Made by a program: the position numbers and the translations under genes
Shown here: piece after piece, positions 4,121 through 29,537 of the stretch
Position numbering within the stretch: position 1 is the stretch's first letter
Layout: each line of letters starts with the position of its first letter
DNA from: a virus
Reading direction: 5' to 3' (one strand)
Length of the DNA stretch: 30,560 nucleotides
Virus record (IMG/VR): IMGVR_UViG_3300002053_000066
Location: 1 to 30,560 of that record
The notes under the pieces: generated by a model
What the model saw: only the letters and a program-made list of their open reading frames with translations
Database searches by the model: none
Told to the model about the DNA's origin: nothing

Positions 4121-4428
4121 TGACTATTCATGCAGGTGATAATCCTATAGCTAATGCTAATATTCCAGTAATATACAATCAAACTATATCTATACCTAAT
4201 TTTGAATATTCTTATACCTTACCCATAAATTGTAGAAAATTTCAAATTAAACCTAGACAAATAGATAGAGAAGTTAAATTAGCATTTAATTCAGGAGAGT
4301 CTGGAACTAATTATATTACAATTCCTCCTGGAGGTTATTGGCATGATTTAATTGGATTATCTAATCAAATTATTTATTTTCAGACTGAAACAGAAAATAC
4401 TGTAGTTGAAATTGAGGCTTGGAGTTAA
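4120..4428 (+). CDS. Putative virion-associated beta protein, 102 aa
   Basis: The ATG overlaps the previous stop and follows AGGAGATTTTA. The chain is almost entirely strand-like, with 'CRKFQIKPRQIDREVKLAFNSGESGTNYITIPPGGYW' (residues 38-74, described in parts) and a terminal 'TVVEIEAWS'. I associate this 'CRkf..K.R....lklaF.sG.sGt.Y.tippG' pattern with small phage virion proteins of immunoglobulin-like or jelly-roll plan. It is followed three bases later by the LamG-domain protein, so they may form one structure. A capsid or tail decoration role is inference. Confidence 0.6.
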   Translation: MTIHAGDNPIANANIPVIYNQTISIPNFEYSYTLPINCRKFQIKPRQIDREVKLAFNSGESGTNYITIPPGGYWHDLIGLSNQIIYFQTETENTVVEIEAWS

Positions 4429-4430
4429 TT

Positions 4431-6146
4431 ATGCCTTTTGGTGATATAGGATATATTTATAATAGAAAAACTATATGGGATTCTGCTACAGACTTTAATA
4501 AAGGAACATTAGATTCTACAGTAGAAGTTAATGGAGTTGGAGATGCAGCAGTTTTAAGATTGAAGGATAAAACAGATAATAACAATAACATTGATTATGA
4601 AACTGCTGGAGAATATACATTATCTGATGGGGCAAAATTAGAAGTTGCAGATGGAAATGCTCAATTAAAAGCAATTTCAGGTTCAACAAAAGATTGGCCT
4701 TTTACAACGCCTGGAAATTACACTTATGACTCCAATAAAATTACTGTTTCTGGAGATAAAGCTTATCTTAAAGGGGTAACTAGTGTCTATGCTCAGTGGC
4801 ATTTAAATGAATCTTCTGGTACTAATGTACCTGATGTTGGACCGAATGGATATGATGGTACTACTCAAAATATGGATGATTCTAATTGGGTTTCTGCAAA
4901 ATTAAATAATGGGCTTAGTTTTGACGGTTCTACCGAATATGTAAATTGTGGAAATATTGCAAATTTTGAAAGAACATCTTCATTTTCATTAGAGGCGTGG
5001 ATTAAAACAAGTACAACTGCTGGAGATATTTTAACTCATTATAGTGGAGGTAAAGGATTTATTTCATATATTGCAACAGGAGGTAAAATATATTTCACAT
5101 TAAGAAATACTTCTGGTACAAATGAAGCTTCTAGATATAGTTCAGGTTCAGTAACAGATGGAAATTGGCATCATGTAATAATAACTTATGATGGAAGTTC
5201 ATCTAATACAGGAATTAAGATTTACATTGACGGTAATGATTCAACAGATACAGGAAGTGGTATAAATACTTTAACTAATAGTATTCAAGTAACTACTAGT
5301 CTAATTATGGGAGGTAGAACTGGTTCAGCTACTTTTACGGGACAAATTGATGAAGCTTTAATTTACAATAAAGAATTATCTTCTACAGAAGTTACAGCTA
5401 GATGGAATTCAGGCAGTGGGACAGAACAAGAAGGAGTAGATCAAAATAATCCTAATATTTATCCTAATACAGGATTTTCATTTACTACTAATTTAGATTC
5501 TTTTACAGAGACAGCTACTAAGCCAACTGGAACTGGAATTAAATATCATTGTAGTTCAGATGATGGTTCTACTTGGAAATATTGGAATGGTTCAATATGG
5601 ACTACTACAGATAATAGTTATGCTCAAGCGAATGATGCTGCTACAGTAAATACATATATAAATTCCTTAGCATCTAGTGGGACATTTAAATTTCGTGCAT
5701 TATTAAATTCAGATGGAACTACTGATGATTTATATGTGGATACAAAAGATACAAGTCAAATTACTCCTGCAGTTATATTAGAATGGCTTACAACTACAAT
5801 TTCAAATGTAAAACCAAGTAATACGGATATTAGGGTATTGTTTTCAACAGATAGTAGATCCAATTGGCAGACATATACAGGTGGAAGTTGGCAAGCTCCA
5901 ACTTCAGCTACTACTCGAACTGATGCAACTTCAATTACAGATGCTCAAAATAATTTTAATGATTTAGCTTTAGGTTCAGGAACTTTAGATGTGAGAATAT
6001 TTTTATATACTTCTGATAGTTCTGTTCGTCCTCAAGTTTCAAATATTAATGTAACTTCTGACGTTGGATTAGAAACTTCTGGAAATTGGATTAGTAATTC
6101 ATACAATTGTAATTATCGTGATATCTGGAACTTCTATAATTTATAA
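4431..6146 (+). CDS. Large structural protein with LamG/concanavalin-A-like domain; 3' end frameshifted
   Basis: The ATG at 4431 follows GGAG with a 6-base spacer. The protein is 571 residues long. Residues about 118-330 form a LamG/concanavalin-A-like lectin domain: 'YAQWHLNES', 'GLSFDGSTEYVNCG', 'SSFSLEAWIKT', 'DGNWHHVIITYDG', 'IKIYIDG' and 'GQIDEALIYNKELSSTEV' are its typical strands. A beta-rich region of repeated 'SxDGSTWKYWNGSxW' type follows. Such proteins bind sugars or form surface fibres or decorations on virions. The natural reading breaks near 6117: the frame ends soon afterwards at a TAA, while the obvious continuation lies in the +1 frame (6118-6345). Its place between the small and large terminase genes is unusual for a receptor-binding protein. 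Confidence 0.8.
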   Translation: MPFGDIGYIYNRKTIWDSATDFNKGTLDSTVEVNGVGDAAVLRLKDKTDNNNNIDYETAGEYTLSDGAKLEVADGNAQLKAISGSTKDWPFTTPGNYTYDSNKITVSGDKAYLKGVTSVYAQWHLNESSGTNVPDVGPNGYDGTTQNMDDSNWVSAKLNNGLSFDGSTEYVNCGNIANFERTSSFSLEAWIKTSTTAGDILTHYSGGKGFISYIATGGKIYFTLRNTSGTNEASRYSSGSVTDGNWHHVIITYDGSSSNTGIKIYIDGNDSTDTGSGINTLTNSIQVTTSLIMGGRTGSATFTGQIDEALIYNKELSSTEVTARWNSGSGTEQEGVDQNNPNIYPNTGFSFTTNLDSFTETATKPTGTGIKYHCSSDDGSTWKYWNGSIWTTTDNSYAQANDAATVNTYINSLASSGTFKFRALLNSDGTTDDLYVDTKDTSQITPAVILEWLTTTISNVKPSNTDIRVLFSTDSRSNWQTYTGGSWQAPTSATTRTDATSITDAQNNFNDLALGSGTLDVRIFLYTSDSSVRPQVSNINVTSDVGLETSGNWISNSYNCNYRDIWNFYNL

Positions 6147-12799: not shown

Positions 12800-12851
12800 T
12801 GGTCTCTTGGGGCAGTGTGTCAACTATGTTGATGACCTCCCCTTGAGACCA
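12800..12851 (+). other. Long-range hairpin between decoration protein and glycosyltransferase genes
   Basis: TGGTCTC (12800-12806) pairs with GAGACCA (12845-12851). After a TT/TT bulge, GGGG (12809-12812) pairs with CCCC (12839-12842). The loop holds another small stem TCAAC/GTTGA (12820-12832). It separates the head genes from the glycosyltransferase cassette and could trim or attenuate the transcript there. No T-run follows. Confidence 0.6.
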
Positions 12852-12869
12852 GGCTTGGAAAGGTGGGAA

Positions 12870-13955
12870 ATGAAAAAGAAACTATTACTTATAGCTTATA
12901 GAGCATATGGAGATTGGTTATATACCGTACCAGTTCTTCCATATTTATTTGAAAGATATGATATATATTTAGAAACTAATTGGAAAATATATAATTTAGT
13001 TTATAATGATCCTAGATTTAAACATATATCATACTTAATATATGAAAAATATCCTAAAGATAGATGGACTGAATTATTTTTTAAACGATGGGTTGAGGTA
13101 AAAAAGAAGTTAAAACCAGATAGAACAATTAATTTGAATGGTTCATTAGAAACAACTTGTATTGCTGAAAATTTTCAAAAAGAATTTTATTTGCCGATGG
13201 AACTTCGAAGAAATTATTTCAATAAAAATACTTTTTATGATGCAGTATTTGAACGATGTAGAATTCCAATTCCAAAAGAATTTAAATTAGATGAATTATA
13301 TTATTCGGATAAAGAAATAAAAATAGTGGAGAATTGGAGATTAAAAGAAAAAGATTGGTTTATTATAATAATGCCAATTGCAGGAAGTACAAGTCAGAAA
13401 GTTTTACATTCTTTTCGTAATTGGGTGGATCAAATACTCTATAGATATCCACAATCAAAGGTATATTTATCCGGTGACGATTTGTGCAAAAACCTAGTTC
13501 AATCTATACAAGAACCTAGAATTAAGAATCTTTGTGGATATGATATCCCAATTAAGCAGAATTTTTTGATGACTAAATATGCAGATTATGTTATCGGACC
13601 TGAGACAGGCACATTAGTAGCTGCTGGAATGTGGGGAACTCCAAAAACTATGCTATGTACAACATCTAGTGTTTATCAATGCACTAAATATCAAAATAAT
13701 GACAATTCAATTCAAGCATCAATTCAATGTAGTCCCTGTCATAGAGCTATTTATTTTGACACAGATTGTGAAAGAATGTTAGGAGATATTAAAAAGAAGA
13801 TTCTATATCCAGCTTGTACTAAGACTTTTGATATAAATCAAATCTTTAAATTTATAGATCCAATATATGAGAAATTTCGGGAAAGGGGAAAATCTGTTCC
13901 CCACCTTACAGAGAAGTACCCTTTTCCACAGCAAAAAGTGGGAAAAAATGAATAA
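12870..13955 (+). CDS. GT9-family (heptosyltransferase-like) glycosyltransferase, copy A
   Basis: I chose ATG 12870 after AAGGTGGGAA; the longer frame would translate the hairpin. It has 361 residues. The N-terminal Rossmann-like half begins 'LLLIAYRAYGDWLYTVPVLPYL'-like text with the GDW turn at 14-16. The C-terminal half carries 'GPETGTLVAAG' (243-253) and a 'CSPC' pair with a distant Cys (287-290, C300), both typical of ADP-heptose:LPS heptosyltransferase relatives. The donor and acceptor are unknown. It would act in the cytoplasm on LPS core or O-antigen sugars, or on virion glycans. It overlaps the methyltransferase gene by eight bases and is paralogous to the gene at 14496. Confidence 0.85.
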   Translation: MKKKLLLIAYRAYGDWLYTVPVLPYLFERYDIYLETNWKIYNLVYNDPRFKHISYLIYEKYPKDRWTELFFKRWVEVKKKLKPDRTINLNGSLETTCIAENFQKEFYLPMELRRNYFNKNTFYDAVFERCRIPIPKEFKLDELYYSDKEIKIVENWRLKEKDWFIIIMPIAGSTSQKVLHSFRNWVDQILYRYPQSKVYLSGDDLCKNLVQSIQEPRIKNLCGYDIPIKQNFLMTKYADYVIGPETGTLVAAGMWGTPKTMLCTTSSVYQCTKYQNNDNSIQASIQCSPCHRAIYFDTDCERMLGDIKKKILYPACTKTFDINQIFKFIDPIYEKFRERGKSVPHLTEKYPFPQQKVGKNE

Positions 13956-14496
13956 AATTTATGATAAAGCTTATTATTTAAAGTATGTAAAACAAGCTAA
14001 ATCAAAATTAGGTAAAAATATCTATAAAACTAGATGGAAATTGATTACAAAATATATTAAAAATGGTGCAATTCTTGATTTTGGCTGTGGTCCTGGAGCA
14101 TTTAATAAAGCTGGCCCAGATAATTTTAGTAAATATGGATATGATATAAATCCATATTGTAGATTTGAAAAATTTCCTAAAGTTAAATTTTGGGATATTG
14201 TCACTTTTTGGGATAGTTTAGAACATACCCCTGATTTTTACGGGATAATAAAAAAGTTAAATCCAAAGTGGATATTTTTATCTTGCCCTAATTTAGAATC
14301 GGTTAAAATTCCTATAACTCAATGGAAACATTATAGACCTGAAGAACATCTTTATTATTTTGATCGACATAGTTTAAAAGTTATTTTAGAATTATTGGGA
14401 TATCAAATTGTAGAAATCAACTATGATGAAGGGAAGTTAAGAGATCCAAATAATCCATTGGCAATTATTACAATAGCAGCAAAAAGGATTAATTAA
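13948..14496 (+). CDS. SAM-dependent methyltransferase (class I, Methyltransf_23-like)
   Basis: ATG 13948 after GTGGGAAAAA. The protein has 182 residues. The SAM-binding glycine loop is 'LDFGCGPG' (43-50), followed by 'YGYDINPY' with the acidic residue D66 and 'FWDSLEHTPD' (87-96). The C-terminal 'HLYYFDRHSLKVILELLGY' matches the strand-helix pattern of small-molecule and sugar methyltransferases. Length is slightly short for the family. It sits between two GT9 genes, overlapping the first by eight bases and the second by one (TAATG), so methylation of a sugar added by the neighbours is the likely job. The substrate is not known. Confidence 0.85.
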   Translation: MNKIYDKAYYLKYVKQAKSKLGKNIYKTRWKLITKYIKNGAILDFGCGPGAFNKAGPDNFSKYGYDINPYCRFEKFPKVKFWDIVTFWDSLEHTPDFYGIIKKLNPKWIFLSCPNLESVKIPITQWKHYRPEEHLYYFDRHSLKVILELLGYQIVEINYDEGKLRDPNNPLAIITIAAKRIN

Positions 14497-15524
14497 TGCT
14501 TTTTGCGGTTAAACGGTCCCCAGCTAAAAATCAAAAGAAACTATGTGTTATTAGATATGGAGCTTGGGGTGATGCGATAATGATATCCCCTGTGTTTAAA
14601 TATTATCATCAAGATGGGTGGCACATTACTTTAAATTGTACACAAAAATGTTATGATGTTTTAAATACAAATCCATATATTGATGCTTTTATTATTCAAT
14701 CTGATGGTGAAATCCCAATTGATAAATTAAATGAGCATTGGAATAAATTAATTAAACAATTTGATAAAGTAATAAATTTTACAGGTTCGATAGAAAATAG
14801 ACTTCTTATATCACCAGGACAGAAAGAATATTTATGGGATAAAGAAAAATTGCATGAACATTGTAATATAAATTATTATGACCATACAATGAAATTAGCT
14901 GGTTATTCTAAAAAGAAAGGTGAATTAGGAGAAATCTATTTTACGCAGAAAGAAGAACAGTTTGTTAAAAAATTAAAAGAAAAATATGAAGGATTTTTAA
15001 TAGTTTGGTGTTTAACAGGAAGTGCAATACATAAGATTTATCCTTGGACTGAAAACATAATTAATGTTATAATAGAAAGAATTCCTGAATCATACATAAT
15101 TTTAGTGGGAGAACCTGCTTGTAAAGGATTAATTGATAAGAATGAAAGAATAATAGATTTGTGTAGTAATATCACAATTCGTGAATCTTTTATACTAACA
15201 AAATATGTGGATTTAGTCATATCAACAGAGACTAGTGTTTTAGTAGCAGCAGGATGTTTTGACACGCCAAAAGTGGCTCTTTTATCGCATGGAAGTGAAG
15301 AAAATTTAACGAAATACTACAAAAACTGTAGTGTTGTAAGAGAAAATGTACCATGTTCACCATGCCATAAATTACATTATTCACGTGATACTTGTCCTCT
15401 AGTTAATGAAATAAATCACCCAATTTGCATGGGTTTATTGCACCCAAAGAAAATACTAGATCCAATTGAAAAAATTTATATAGAATGGAGAGAAAAGAAT
15501 GTCAATACCAACACAACCGACTGA
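14496..15524 (+). CDS. GT9-family (heptosyltransferase-like) glycosyltransferase, copy B
   Basis: 342 residues with a short extra N-terminus (residues 1-14). The GD turn is 'RYGAWGDAIM' (20-29). The C-terminal donor-site motif is 'STETSVLVAAG' (243-253), in place of the 'GPETG' form of copy A. 'CSPC' is at 287-290 with C300. The spacing of these motifs is the same as in copy A, so the two genes come from one ancestor. The start overlaps the methyltransferase stop (TAATG). The 3' end is overlapped by the adaptor gene by 26 bases, and GGAGAGAAAAGA inside it is the adaptor Shine-Dalgarno. A second glycosyl transfer in the same pathway is inferred. Confidence 0.85.
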   Translation: MLFAVKRSPAKNQKKLCVIRYGAWGDAIMISPVFKYYHQDGWHITLNCTQKCYDVLNTNPYIDAFIIQSDGEIPIDKLNEHWNKLIKQFDKVINFTGSIENRLLISPGQKEYLWDKEKLHEHCNINYYDHTMKLAGYSKKKGELGEIYFTQKEEQFVKKLKEKYEGFLIVWCLTGSAIHKIYPWTENIINVIIERIPESYIILVGEPACKGLIDKNERIIDLCSNITIRESFILTKYVDLVISTETSVLVAAGCFDTPKVALLSHGSEENLTKYYKNCSVVRENVPCSPCHKLHYSRDTCPLVNEINHPICMGLLHPKKILDPIEKIYIEWREKNVNTNTTD

Positions 15525-24702: not shown

Positions 24703-24820
24703 ATGTTTCAGTTCTAGTCTGATTTCCTTCCTCATCTATCTCTACAATTGTAATTAACTTTCCATATTTTCCATCTCTAACTACGTTCTCTACTAATTTA
24801 TAATAAGATTCAGGATTCAT
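24665..24820 (-). CDS. Hypothetical acidic protein, 51 aa
   Basis: The ATG overlaps the upstream stop (ATGA at 24817-24820), so it is translated with the DUF5675-like gene. The protein reads 'YYKLVENVVRDGKYGKL' then an acidic strand 'ITIVEIDEEGNQTRTETF', a small beta-hairpin plus helix. It ends 38 bases inside the convergent zinc-finger gene. It is the last gene of the leftward operon. Function unknown. Confidence 0.65.
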   Translation of the reverse strand: MNPESYYKLVENVVRDGKYGKLITIVEIDEEGNQTRTETFTPIFSFDEIDK

Positions 24821-25359
24821 TGTATTATAATTTCTACCTCCTTTCCTTTTAATCGTTCAAATAATCTATTAAATGCAATTTTACTTCTGCCTATAAAATC
24901 TTTTCCTTTAATTTCCCCTACTAACACACAACCTTTTGTGTCTTTTGGATAACAACCCCAATGTATTAAAATTCCGATATAATTCTTTACATTTAATAAT
25001 CTGGGCATTTTTCTTTTATATTTAGGAGACCACCTAAAATCTATTTTATATCTTCCTTTTGGAATAGCCGTTTCTCCATAAATTTTCTTGTCTCTAACAG
25101 GATCTTCTAATGTATAACATTCAAAAGTGCCATTAAAATAGAGCTCTCCAATTGTTGATTTATCTGTGAAATCAGTCCTAATTAAGGTTAAAATTACATG
25201 ATCTAAATGTCTTGGTTTTTCAAATGTCCGTTCAAAACGGGACTTTTTTAATGAATCTGATTGATAATTAGATATGTTTCGATTAATTATAGTTTCAAGA
25301 AATGTTACACATAAGCTCCAAATTTGCCCTAGGAGCGATTTATCCATACTTAGACCCAT
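24817..25359 (-). CDS. DUF5675-like protein, possible L,D-transpeptidase-fold lysis enzyme, 180 aa
   Basis: Residues about 55-180 match the DUF5675 pattern: 'LTLIRTDFTDKSTIGELY', 'CYTLEDPVRD', 'TAIPKGRYKI', 'SPKYKRKMPRLLNV' and 'ILIHWGCYPKDTKGCVLVG' with H133, C136, G143 and C144. The H...GC pattern resembles the active site of YkuD-type L,D-transpeptidases, where a Cys attacks the peptide of the cell wall. This is a resemblance by eye, not a proven fold. Residues 1-54 are an extra N-terminus with a short hydrophobic stretch ('LLGQIWSLCVTFLETII'). No classical endolysin was found in the window, so this is a lysis candidate. The start follows GGAGGTCTA. Confidence 0.7.
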   Translation of the reverse strand: MGLSMDKSLLGQIWSLCVTFLETIINRNISNYQSDSLKKSRFERTFEKPRHLDHVILTLIRTDFTDKSTIGELYFNGTFECYTLEDPVRDKKIYGETAIPKGRYKIDFRWSPKYKRKMPRLLNVKNYIGILIHWGCYPKDTKGCVLVGEIKGKDFIGRSKIAFNRLFERLKGKEVEIIIQ

Positions 25360-26484: not shown

Positions 26485-26982
26485 TTAATTCCAAGTTAAT
26501 CCTATAAATAAACTAGGAAACCAATACACCTTATCGGCATCCCGTCTAGCCCCACATCTAAAATAAAATAATTTACAGGCTATATCTTTATTTGGTCGTG
26601 TTGGAAAAGTGGGGACGTTTTTCTGACTAAAATACACATGAAACGTTATATGTAAAGGCCATTGAATAGCAAAATGCCATCTACACCAATATTGAATAGC
26701 GGATAGATAAAATCCATATAATTTTCTTCTGAATAATATTTCTTCATCTAAGTATAAAACTTGTGATCCATCTGTATTTTCTACTCTATATAATCCTTTT
26801 CCTCTAATAGCTAATAAAGTAATAGGAAATTCTCTCCATTTAGCCCACCATTCAGTAGCTCTAGAACTAAAAGCAAACCAATGTTTAATATTAAGTAAAG
26901 GACGTTGTAACCAATTATCCCAGTCAGTTCCTATCCATTCTTTTGGTTCATCTATATATTCTGGTAAAGCGGATTTAGGCAT
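26485..26982 (-). CDS. Trp-rich hypothetical phage protein, 165 aa
   Basis: Twelve tryptophans in 165 residues, many in 'WDNWLQRPLLNIKHWF' and 'IQYWCRWHFAIQWPLHI'. I have the impression that this pattern occurs in other phage genomes as a protein of unknown function, but I cannot name it. Two cysteines near the C-terminus ('ACKLFYFRCGARRDADKVYW') could bind metal or form a disulfide. It ends in 'PSLFIGLTWN'. There is no clear transmembrane segment. It overlaps the upstream gene by eight bases. A membrane-surface or envelope partner is possible. Confidence 0.7.
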   Translation of the reverse strand: MPKSALPEYIDEPKEWIGTDWDNWLQRPLLNIKHWFAFSSRATEWWAKWREFPITLLAIRGKGLYRVENTDGSQVLYLDEEILFRRKLYGFYLSAIQYWCRWHFAIQWPLHITFHVYFSQKNVPTFPTRPNKDIACKLFYFRCGARRDADKVYWFPSLFIGLTWN

Positions 26983-27201: not shown

Positions 27202-27384
27202 TTAATTTTTTAATGTTTTTTTAATTAATCTAGTAATTTTACGTTTATCATTAGCTGATTTTTTTCTTCCTACAAAATGTCTATAATGTTTTATACTCGT
27301 ATACCATTCACCAACAACGGCTACAAGAATTAATATCTCCCAAATTCCCCAATCAACTAATGATTTAGCTATATGCTCTATCAT
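27202..27384 (-). CDS. Single-transmembrane small protein, 60 aa
   Basis: One hydrophobic segment ('WGIWEILILVAVVGEWY', residues 12-28) and a strongly basic tail ('FVGRKKSANDKRKITRLIKK'). The start codon overlaps the protease stop (ATGA), so it is coupled to the lipoprotein protease. It could be a partner or anchor of the protease. Function unknown. Confidence 0.65.
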   Translation of the reverse strand: MIEHIAKSLVDWGIWEILILVAVVGEWYTSIKHYRHFVGRKKSANDKRKITRLIKKTLKN

Positions 27385-28049
27385 TTTAATAATTTTCTAT
27401 ATTTAATTAAAAATTCATAAATTTGACTTGCTTCTACGGCTAATCCTAATCCAGTGTTAAGAGGAGGAACAATAGGACTTATAATTCTAGTATTAATTCC
27501 AACTATCTCTCCTTTTAAGTTAAATAATGGGCCACCAGAATTTCCTGGATTTATAGCTGCATTAGTTTGTAAAAGATTATATTGTACACAATCTCTATTT
27601 AATGCACTAATTATTCCATGCGTTACTGTCCAATCGTACATTAATGGATGACCTATTGCTATGACTTCTTGACCCACTTTTAAAGTCCCTGGTTTAGCTA
27701 CTATTGCATAATACGAAGTATAATGATCTATTTTCAATAATGCTAAGTCTTTTTTATCTTCTTTTGCCAATATTTTAGCAGGAAATAAATCTCCATAATA
27801 AGTTTCAACACTTATTATATCTTTTAATTTATTATTAGCTAAAATATGAGAACAAGTTAAAATATGCCCATGTTTACTAATAAATACCCCTGCACCTATT
27901 TTTGATTTCATTTCATTTTCTAATACAACTGGAGCTATTGTAATAACTACTTTTGGCAATGATTTATAAATTACTTTTACATATTTTTCTTTTGGAGTAC
28001 AGGCTATACAACTTAAACAAATTACACTTAAAATTAATTTTTTAATCAT
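27381..28049 (-). CDS. HtrA/trypsin-like serine protease lipoprotein
   Basis: 222 residues from ATG 28049, which overlaps the upstream stop and has AAGGA at a good distance; a start nine bases earlier is also possible. The signal 'MIKKLILSVICLSCIAC' ends in a lipobox with Cys17 as the lipid anchor. The protease domain has the full triad: H68 in 'TCSHIL', D101 in 'KKDLALL', S171 in 'NPGNSGGP'. 'GVFISKHGHILT' and 'VGQEVIAIGHP' are HtrA-family strands. No PDZ domain follows, so it is a minimal protease domain. It should be exported and anchored in the inner or outer membrane, facing the periplasm. It is followed by a small membrane protein overlapping by four bases. The sequence is complete, with no loss of active residues. 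Confidence 0.9.
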   Translation of the reverse strand: MIKKLILSVICLSCIACTPKEKYVKVIYKSLPKVVITIAPVVLENEMKSKIGAGVFISKHGHILTCSHILANNKLKDIISVETYYGDLFPAKILAKEDKKDLALLKIDHYTSYYAIVAKPGTLKVGQEVIAIGHPLMYDWTVTHGIISALNRDCVQYNLLQTNAAINPGNSGGPLFNLKGEIVGINTRIISPIVPPLNTGLGLAVEASQIYEFLIKYRKLLK

Positions 28050-28756: not shown

Positions 28757-29290
28757 TTACCATTTAACTCGAATACCAGCTAAGAATTTAGTAGAATCAT
28801 TTAATCCTATATACATACTCGTATTTGATAGAATTTTAAAAGGCATAGTATAGCTTAAACTAAGAACATTTATTTTACCTTTTAAATCATGATTTTCAGA
28901 TCTTAATCCTATACCACTTAATAAACCTATTCTCCTCCAATAGAACCATTGAATATCTAATCCAACCCATAATTTTTCATTGGAATAAAAAGTAGCATAT
29001 CCAGGTTCACAAATAAATCCTATAGTCGGACTATATAAATCTATTGAGCCATCATTTTTTACAGTGATTACTGTAGTTCTTGCCCCCGATTTAACTTCAA
29101 TTTTATCTTTTTCAACATTAGTAATAGTTCTATCTTCTATTATAATTTTTCTTTTTTCATTGTCTTTTAACGTTAATGACACTTTTTCATTGTAAGTTTT
29201 CATTTTCCACAATTTATAATATGGATATAGTATAATTCCTACTATACCTAACAAGATTACAGTCAATTTAAAATGTTTGATAATACTCAT
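28757..29290 (-). CDS. Membrane-anchored protein with C-terminal beta region, 177 aa
   Basis: ATG after AAGGAGATTAT. Residues 7-24 ('FKLTVILLGIVGIILYPYY') form a signal anchor. Residues about 55-80 are a charged strand-rich linker. From about 85 the chain has repeated amphipathic strands ('LWVGLDIQWFYW', 'GLLSGIGLRS', 'INVLSLSYTMPF', 'TSMYIGLNDS', 'FLAGIRVKW') and ends in Trp, as outer-membrane beta-barrel proteins do. The number of strands is low for a full barrel, so a beta-sandwich or a pore-forming oligomer is possible. It would act in the envelope. Family not recognised. Confidence 0.7.
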   Translation of the reverse strand: MSIIKHFKLTVILLGIVGIILYPYYKLWKMKTYNEKVSLTLKDNEKRKIIIEDRTITNVEKDKIEVKSGARTTVITVKNDGSIDLYSPTIGFICEPGYATFYSNEKLWVGLDIQWFYWRRIGLLSGIGLRSENHDLKGKINVLSLSYTMPFKILSNTSMYIGLNDSTKFLAGIRVKW

Positions 29291-29348: not shown

Positions 29349-29537
29349 TTAGTATTTTCTTCTTCTACCTTTAGCTGCCAGTTTTTGGAACCTTCTTTTA
29401 CCATATTTCCTTCGTCCTATCCATGCAGCTAACGCTCCTGGAGATCTTACACCACGTCTTGCTAGTCTTGTTTTAAGAGCCTTAAACCTAGCCCCCGTAC
29501 CAAGTTTAAGTCTGCGTCGTCGGGCCATCTTCTTCAT
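29349..29537 (-). CDS. Very basic Arg/Lys protein, 62 aa
   Basis: It has 26 Lys and Arg in 62 residues and no acidic residue. The core 'GARFKALKTRLARRGVRS' then 'GALAAWIGRRKYGKRRF' is a pattern I associate with a widespread phage family of unknown function. The high charge implies binding to nucleic acid or to acidic protein. Two starts are possible: MKK close behind AGGAGG or MARR three codons later with a longer spacer. The first 32 bases overlap the end of the zinc protein gene in another frame. Confidence 0.8.
   Translation of the reverse strand: MKKMARRRRLKLGTGARFKALKTRLARRGVRSPGALAAWIGRRKYGKRRFQKLAAKGRRRKY

Follow-up and report, generated by a model that had tools for sequence, protein, structure and literature searches.

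The stretch of DNA analysed here, called the window below, is a 30,560-nucleotide virus record. PHROG matches to terminase, portal, major head and tail-fibre proteins identify it as a genuine tailed-phage genome, and relatives whose terminases share 67-72% identity with its own show synteny with it. Its minus strand carries a gene for a serine protease, tightly packed with same-strand genes on both sides (Table 1) and preceded by AAGGA, 8 nt 5' of the ATG. The earlier note on this DNA had pointed out that the ORF of a small membrane protein at 27202 overlaps the protease gene, which it does (ATGA), and had proposed that this protein anchors or controls the protease. The proposal was not retained: the overlap is ordinary operon packing, and no counterpart of the 60-aa protein was found among the inspected neighbours of the orthologous protease L019, described below. 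The C-terminus of the 60-aa protein is basic, which suggests that it has no periplasmic domain. A spanin (Rz/Rz1) pair, composed of a small outer-membrane lipoprotein and an inner-membrane partner with a periplasmic coiled coil, was also considered and rejected on anatomy, the lipoprotein candidate being a full protease and its partner having one transmembrane (TM) segment and this basic end. In a scan for promoters and terminators, sites were no more numerous than in shuffled sequences.

Table 1. Protease locus of the window, with the flanking genes discussed in the text.
Feature	Position	Strand	Remarks
Gene for a protein with an N-terminal TM segment	28757..29290	minus	synteny anchor; tblastn to L012/L009 and L189
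Upstream gene, 75 aa	28042..28269	minus	8-nt overlap with the protease start, same direction
HtrA/DegS-type serine protease gene	27381..28049	minus	222 aa, without PDZ domain
Parts of the protease (residues)			signal peptide about 1-16; candidate lipidated Cys17; N-terminal helix 19-33; protease domain about 34-217
Putative signal peptide MIKKLILSVICLSCIAC	27999..28049	minus	non-canonical lipobox ending at Cys17; hydrophobic segment 1-19
Catalytic His68 codon	27846..27848	minus	invariant in 39 relatives
Catalytic Asp101 codon	27747..27749	minus	invariant in 39 relatives
Catalytic Ser171 codon	27537..27539	minus	in GNSGG motif; invariant in 39 relatives
Gene for a single-TM protein, 60 aa	27202..27384	minus	overlaps the protease stop by 4 nt (ATGA, 27381-27384)
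DUF5675 protein gene, candidate endolysin	24817..25359	minus	downstream of the protease; Pfam DUF5675, E 2.2e-33

The product of the gene is a genuine serine protease with a trypsin fold, of the HtrA/DegS type, and a chance resemblance is excluded. Pfam Trypsin_2 matches the protein with an E-value of 2.6e-27 (96.8 bits, for a cut-off of 27.6), and its PDB matches are DegP, DegQ, DegS and HtrA relatives, with E-values of about 1e-26 to 1e-20. An alignment of 39 relatives shows no variation at H68, D101 and S171, and the GNSGG motif is intact. No PDZ domain was found in a Pfam scan and there is no room for one, as only 51 residues remain after S171. The complete triad, the HtrA-like character and the lack of a PDZ domain, all claimed in the earlier note, are thus confirmed. 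The HtrA/Do family (MEROPS S1C type) is defined by a trypsin-fold domain with a His-Asp-Ser triad and GNSGG, which is present here, and by at least one C-terminal PDZ domain, which is absent. The corresponding profile, TIGR02037 (DegP, DegQ), matches residues 44-212 of the protease with an E-value of 7.3e-45, but the phage protein lacks the PDZ domains, is half the length, and its 153.7 bits stay below the cut-off of 416.2. Because of this score and the missing PDZ domain, the sequence is classed by curated criteria as not a full Do-family protein.

An AlphaFold2 model built from the 39-sequence alignment has a mean pLDDT of 89.5 and a pTM of 0.86. In a Foldseek search with this model, DegP ranks first by E-value; when the lengths are matched in both directions, the closest structures are single protease domains, namely DegS-deltaPDZ (3lgi_C, TM-score 0.78 on the query and 0.80 on the target) and the HtrA1 catalytic domains. 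The match to DegS-deltaPDZ spans almost all of the model. Given these nearest structures, the protein should function as an isolated HtrA protease domain carried by a short N-terminal helix. The resemblance to DegS-deltaPDZ (PDB 3lgi/2qf0) comprises the trypsin fold, the H/D/S triad, GNSGG, an N-terminal membrane tether and a single protease domain, at 31% identity. Natural DegS differs in having a transmembrane-helix anchor, in place of which the phage protein carries a lipoprotein-type signal, and a PDZ domain, which the phage protein lacks. An anti-phage defence protease was looked for with PADLOC, where a match stronger than to the general HtrA families, together with partner genes, would be expected. 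Only generic protease matches were obtained, the best being RT-Protease_XI (E 1.3e-17) over the protease part alone, and this candidate was dropped.

The N-terminus of the protease, MIKKLILSVICLSCIAC, consists of KK, a hydrophobic stretch and Cys17, with Thr at +2. In its lipobox, C14-I-A-C17, Cys occupies position -3 and Ile-Ala positions -2/-1, a sequence that does not match the PROSITE-type lipoprotein pattern {DERK}6-[LIVMFWSTAG]2-[LIVMFYSTAGCQ]-[AGS]-C. This pattern is matched by the canonical lipobox of the orthologue L019 (LLTGC) and by those of the phage relatives VnaP, Va1, L055 and L031. Despite the imperfect lipobox, the segment is a plausible signal peptide. Export of the protease thus appears likely and lipidation only probable, because the window sequence departs from the pattern to which its orthologue conforms. 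Of the lipobox announced previously, the signal peptide with Cys17 remains plausible, while the Cys at -3 does not fit; that the protein is phage-encoded and probably exported agrees with its N-terminal export signal and its phage context.

Close relatives of the protease were not found in viral contigs with a single-sequence query. A search with the protease alignment did reveal L019, a 206-aa protease without PDZ domain at positions 5974-6594 of contig 3300020202_000181 (31.9 kb, hereafter G008); a further record, G058, is the same phage as G008 and covers another part of it. Identity between the window and G008 is 69% for the head protein, 53% for the terminase, 45% for the portal and 42% for the protease, and other genes are also common to both. 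G008 is therefore placed in the same phage group, and L019 is, by sequence, the orthologue of the protease in a second lineage of that group. The two proteases also pair, with support values of 97/89, in a maximum-likelihood tree of 49 proteases whose bootstrap had not fully settled. L019 adjoins genes for an RNase-H-type exonuclease and a putative DNA methyltransferase, not small membrane-protein genes; as the neighbourhood differs between the lineages, it gives no direct pointer to the function.

G006 (39.7 kb) and G005 represent a third, sister lineage. Synteny with the window extends through this region, and the orthologues of window genes 26485-26982 and 28757-29290 are both present, but at the matching place the protease is absent, and small ORFs alone lie between these anchors. 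The protein of 28757-29290 is conserved in three lineages at 25-30% identity, whether or not they have the protease. Since the gene is lacking at the matching place in the third lineage, the protease is an accessory gene. Most simply, either the protease was already an accessory gene in the ancestor and the G006 branch lost it, or the other branch gained it. The protease was not found in 49 other capsid-relative records, nor in seven terminase relatives or G059, most of these records being fragments.

Such a patchy presence would also be expected of a passenger, that is, a captured fragment of a host degS or htrA gene with little or no role, and bacterial HtrAs are indeed 31-40% identical over the domain. 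This explanation is nevertheless very improbable: the triad and the layout of signal peptide without PDZ domain have been kept in the lineages of the window and of G008 although their terminases share only 53% identity, the two proteases form a sister pair, and the gene overlaps its neighbours within an operon and has a good ribosome-binding site.

The order of the genes on this strand is the same in the window, G006 and G008: the 28757-like gene, the protease where present, and a gene in the endolysin position. The latter varies, with DUF5675 in the window, M15 in G006 and Amidase_2 in G008. As the DUF5675 gene occupies the place of the M15 endolysin of G006 (L012:5344-5847 matches a PHROG endolysin with E 1.9e-24), its product may be a lysis enzyme here. 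The protease could be a helper of lysis that cleaves envelope-spanning or periplasmic proteins late in infection, such as an antiholin or the tethers between outer membrane and peptidoglycan, for timely and complete lysis. Its position upstream of the endolysin-position gene, on the same strand, in both the window and G008 is compatible with this, and cleavage of a lysis regulator by an HtrA-type enzyme has a precedent in the host DegP, which reportedly degrades RI, the periplasmic antiholin of T4 (PMC11413866, citing Tran 2007). However, T4 lysis inhibition was unchanged when degP was deleted (PMC8385771), and in G006 the protease is absent while the endolysin and the remainder of the region are present. 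In G008, genes for a DNA polymerase and an exonuclease lie on the same strand, between the 28757-like gene and the protease. Because replication genes share it, the unit is the non-structural strand and not a dedicated lysis cassette. Furthermore, the proteases of Vibrio phages, described below, adjoin clamp-loader, neck, methyltransferase or PagP genes and not annotated lysis genes. A role in lysis is therefore considered improbable.

HtrA-type proteases of phages are already known, as PHROG families and as named entries in viral structure libraries; the window protein adds a PDZ-less, lipoprotein-like form that it shares with its orthologue. Its best PHROG match is phrog_11383 (E 4.7e-45), of which the members are exported and some have lipoboxes. 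Unlike L055 and L020, proteins of this family of about 370 aa that reach the C-terminal end of the profile, the window protease covers only positions 164-349 of 462. In a first survey of proteases in IMG/VR, 80 loci were kept, which gave 44 usable non-redundant proteins at 85% identity; the gene context was inspected for L019, L055 and L087, and some of the loci are probably bacterial or prophage-border DNA. The part after the catalytic serine is long in 36 of these proteins and short in eight. An export-like N-terminus, according to a crude hydrophobicity test, is present in 33 of the 36 long ones, eight of which also have a lipobox. One viral contig encodes a 421-aa protein (L097:5749-7011) in which, by eye, an S-layer-homology-like part and a trypsin-like domain seem to be joined to an amidase-like C-terminus; L064, L081 and L095 resemble, also by eye, its first two parts.

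A second group, phrog_9683 ('protease'), matches the window protease more weakly than phrog_11383 does (E 3.8e-15). With VnaP protease as a query, 34 isolate-phage records were matched, 33 of them named Vibrio and one Pantoea. The statement of the earlier note that exported phage proteases are not common does not hold in view of these records, with their PHROG 9683 relatives, and of the many IMG/VR contigs with signal-peptide HtrAs. Enzymes of a similar kind are thus present in several marine phages, and the gene of the window is no isolated case. Eleven of the Vibrio phage proteins were translated: they are 201-226 aa long, all match PHROG 9683, and each has the trypsin fold, no PDZ domain and a lipobox with an invariant GC. 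The catalytic serine is invariant among them, the histidine and the aspartate nearly so; Tyr occupies the His column in henriette 12B8 (L206), and Gly the Asp column in S4-7 (L210), so that these two members may be inactive. The group (VnaP, Va1, henriette 12B8 and others) resembles the window protease in size, in the lipoprotein-type layout, in the fold and in the absence of a PDZ domain. It is, however, another sequence subfamily in another gene neighbourhood and with a shorter His-Asp spacing (H67/D86/S154 in VnaP), related to the window family only remotely (profile-profile probability 98.6, about 22% identity). Two Rhizobium phages likewise encode short trypsin-like proteins, which have hydrophobic segments at the N-terminus.

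In VnaP (L201:2755-4716), the gene of the lipoprotein protease precedes that of a small lipoprotein, after which come two hypothetical genes and one annotated as PagP, a lipid A enzyme; this cluster, in one genome, hints at envelope remodelling. A match of the Vibrio-phage protease D69 to the superinfection-exclusion protein Cor spans residues 1-39 alone, which is the lipoprotein signal region, and was not counted. Neither were the INPHARED matches of the window protease that were opened taken as phage evidence, as they are bacterial-looking or unannotated records, for example with HtrAs of PDZ length. MW462191, MT837774, OR844993 and other 'phage' records with full-length HtrA genes of bacterial type resemble bacterial DNA; among the genes of MW462191 are those for cytochrome c biogenesis (ccm) and for glutamine synthetase adenylyltransferase.

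The sequence and the fold are those of the Do/DegS quality-control proteases, and marine viral contigs commonly encode longer exported HtrAs. The phage enzyme might then clear misfolded exported proteins from the periplasm, or trigger or replace the host stress response in a DegS-like manner while host synthesis is shut off. This is rather unlikely: DegP and DegS use the PDZ domain to sense and to choose substrates, and neither the window protein nor L019 nor the Vibrio phage group has one.

The reading preferred here, to which a probability of about 55% is given, is an envelope-anchored, PDZ-less HtrA-type protease that cuts host envelope proteins during infection, a Gram-negative envelope being assumed. 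The small protease would be exported by the host Sec pathway and, probably being a lipoprotein, would remain attached to the envelope. As it resembles DegS stripped of the regulatory PDZ domain, it would probably be active without a PDZ peptide signal, although some other part of an HtrA without PDZ domain could still control it. It would be an accessory, host-takeover gene product encoded on the non-structural strand and not a part of the virion, which fits its absence from the syntenic G006. One or more host envelope proteins would be its targets; export and anchoring, activity and an envelope target are what we infer from the sequence and the model. The combination of lipobox and trypsin fold without PDZ domain in all 11 Vibrio phage proteins fits a shared envelope task.

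The benefit for the phage is a matter of guesswork: tentatively, the entry of competing phages could be blocked by altering or removing an envelope protein (superinfection exclusion). No description of such an enzymatic exclusion, and no paper on PDZ-less lipoprotein proteases in phages, was found in the open-access literature, a coverage that is incomplete, so that such papers may exist. More generally, phages may have acquired small trypsin-fold proteases of this type, lipid-anchored and without PDZ domain, more than once (in the window lineage and in the Vibrio-phage PHROG 9683 group), as a recurrent means of cleaving envelope proteins of the infected cell, for example for shutting out other phages; this idea is put forward as a doubtful one. 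Should exported proteases with this layout indeed reshape the envelope during infection, phages would have an additional, enzymatic and post-translational route for changing the host surface. Cultured Vibrio phages carry similar proteases, such as VnaP on Vibrio natriegens, so the question is testable without the uncultured phage of the window.

Some other genes of the window are also worth mentioning. The protein of 28757-29290 combines its N-terminal TM segment with a strand-like C-terminal part and had zero matches among 50,697 phage records. At 29349-29537, a 62-aa protein without family match is very rich in Arg and Lys and possibly binds DNA. Between the head and tail genes (12807-15524), two glycosyltransferase-9-like proteins, about 31% identical to each other, flank a methyltransferase; one of them matches Glyco_transf_9 with an E-value of 5.8e-4, below the cut-off, and the region is conserved in all lineages examined. 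Immediately before the terminase gene, a large protein (4419-6146) carries a Laminin_G_3/lectin-like domain (E 3.6e-24).
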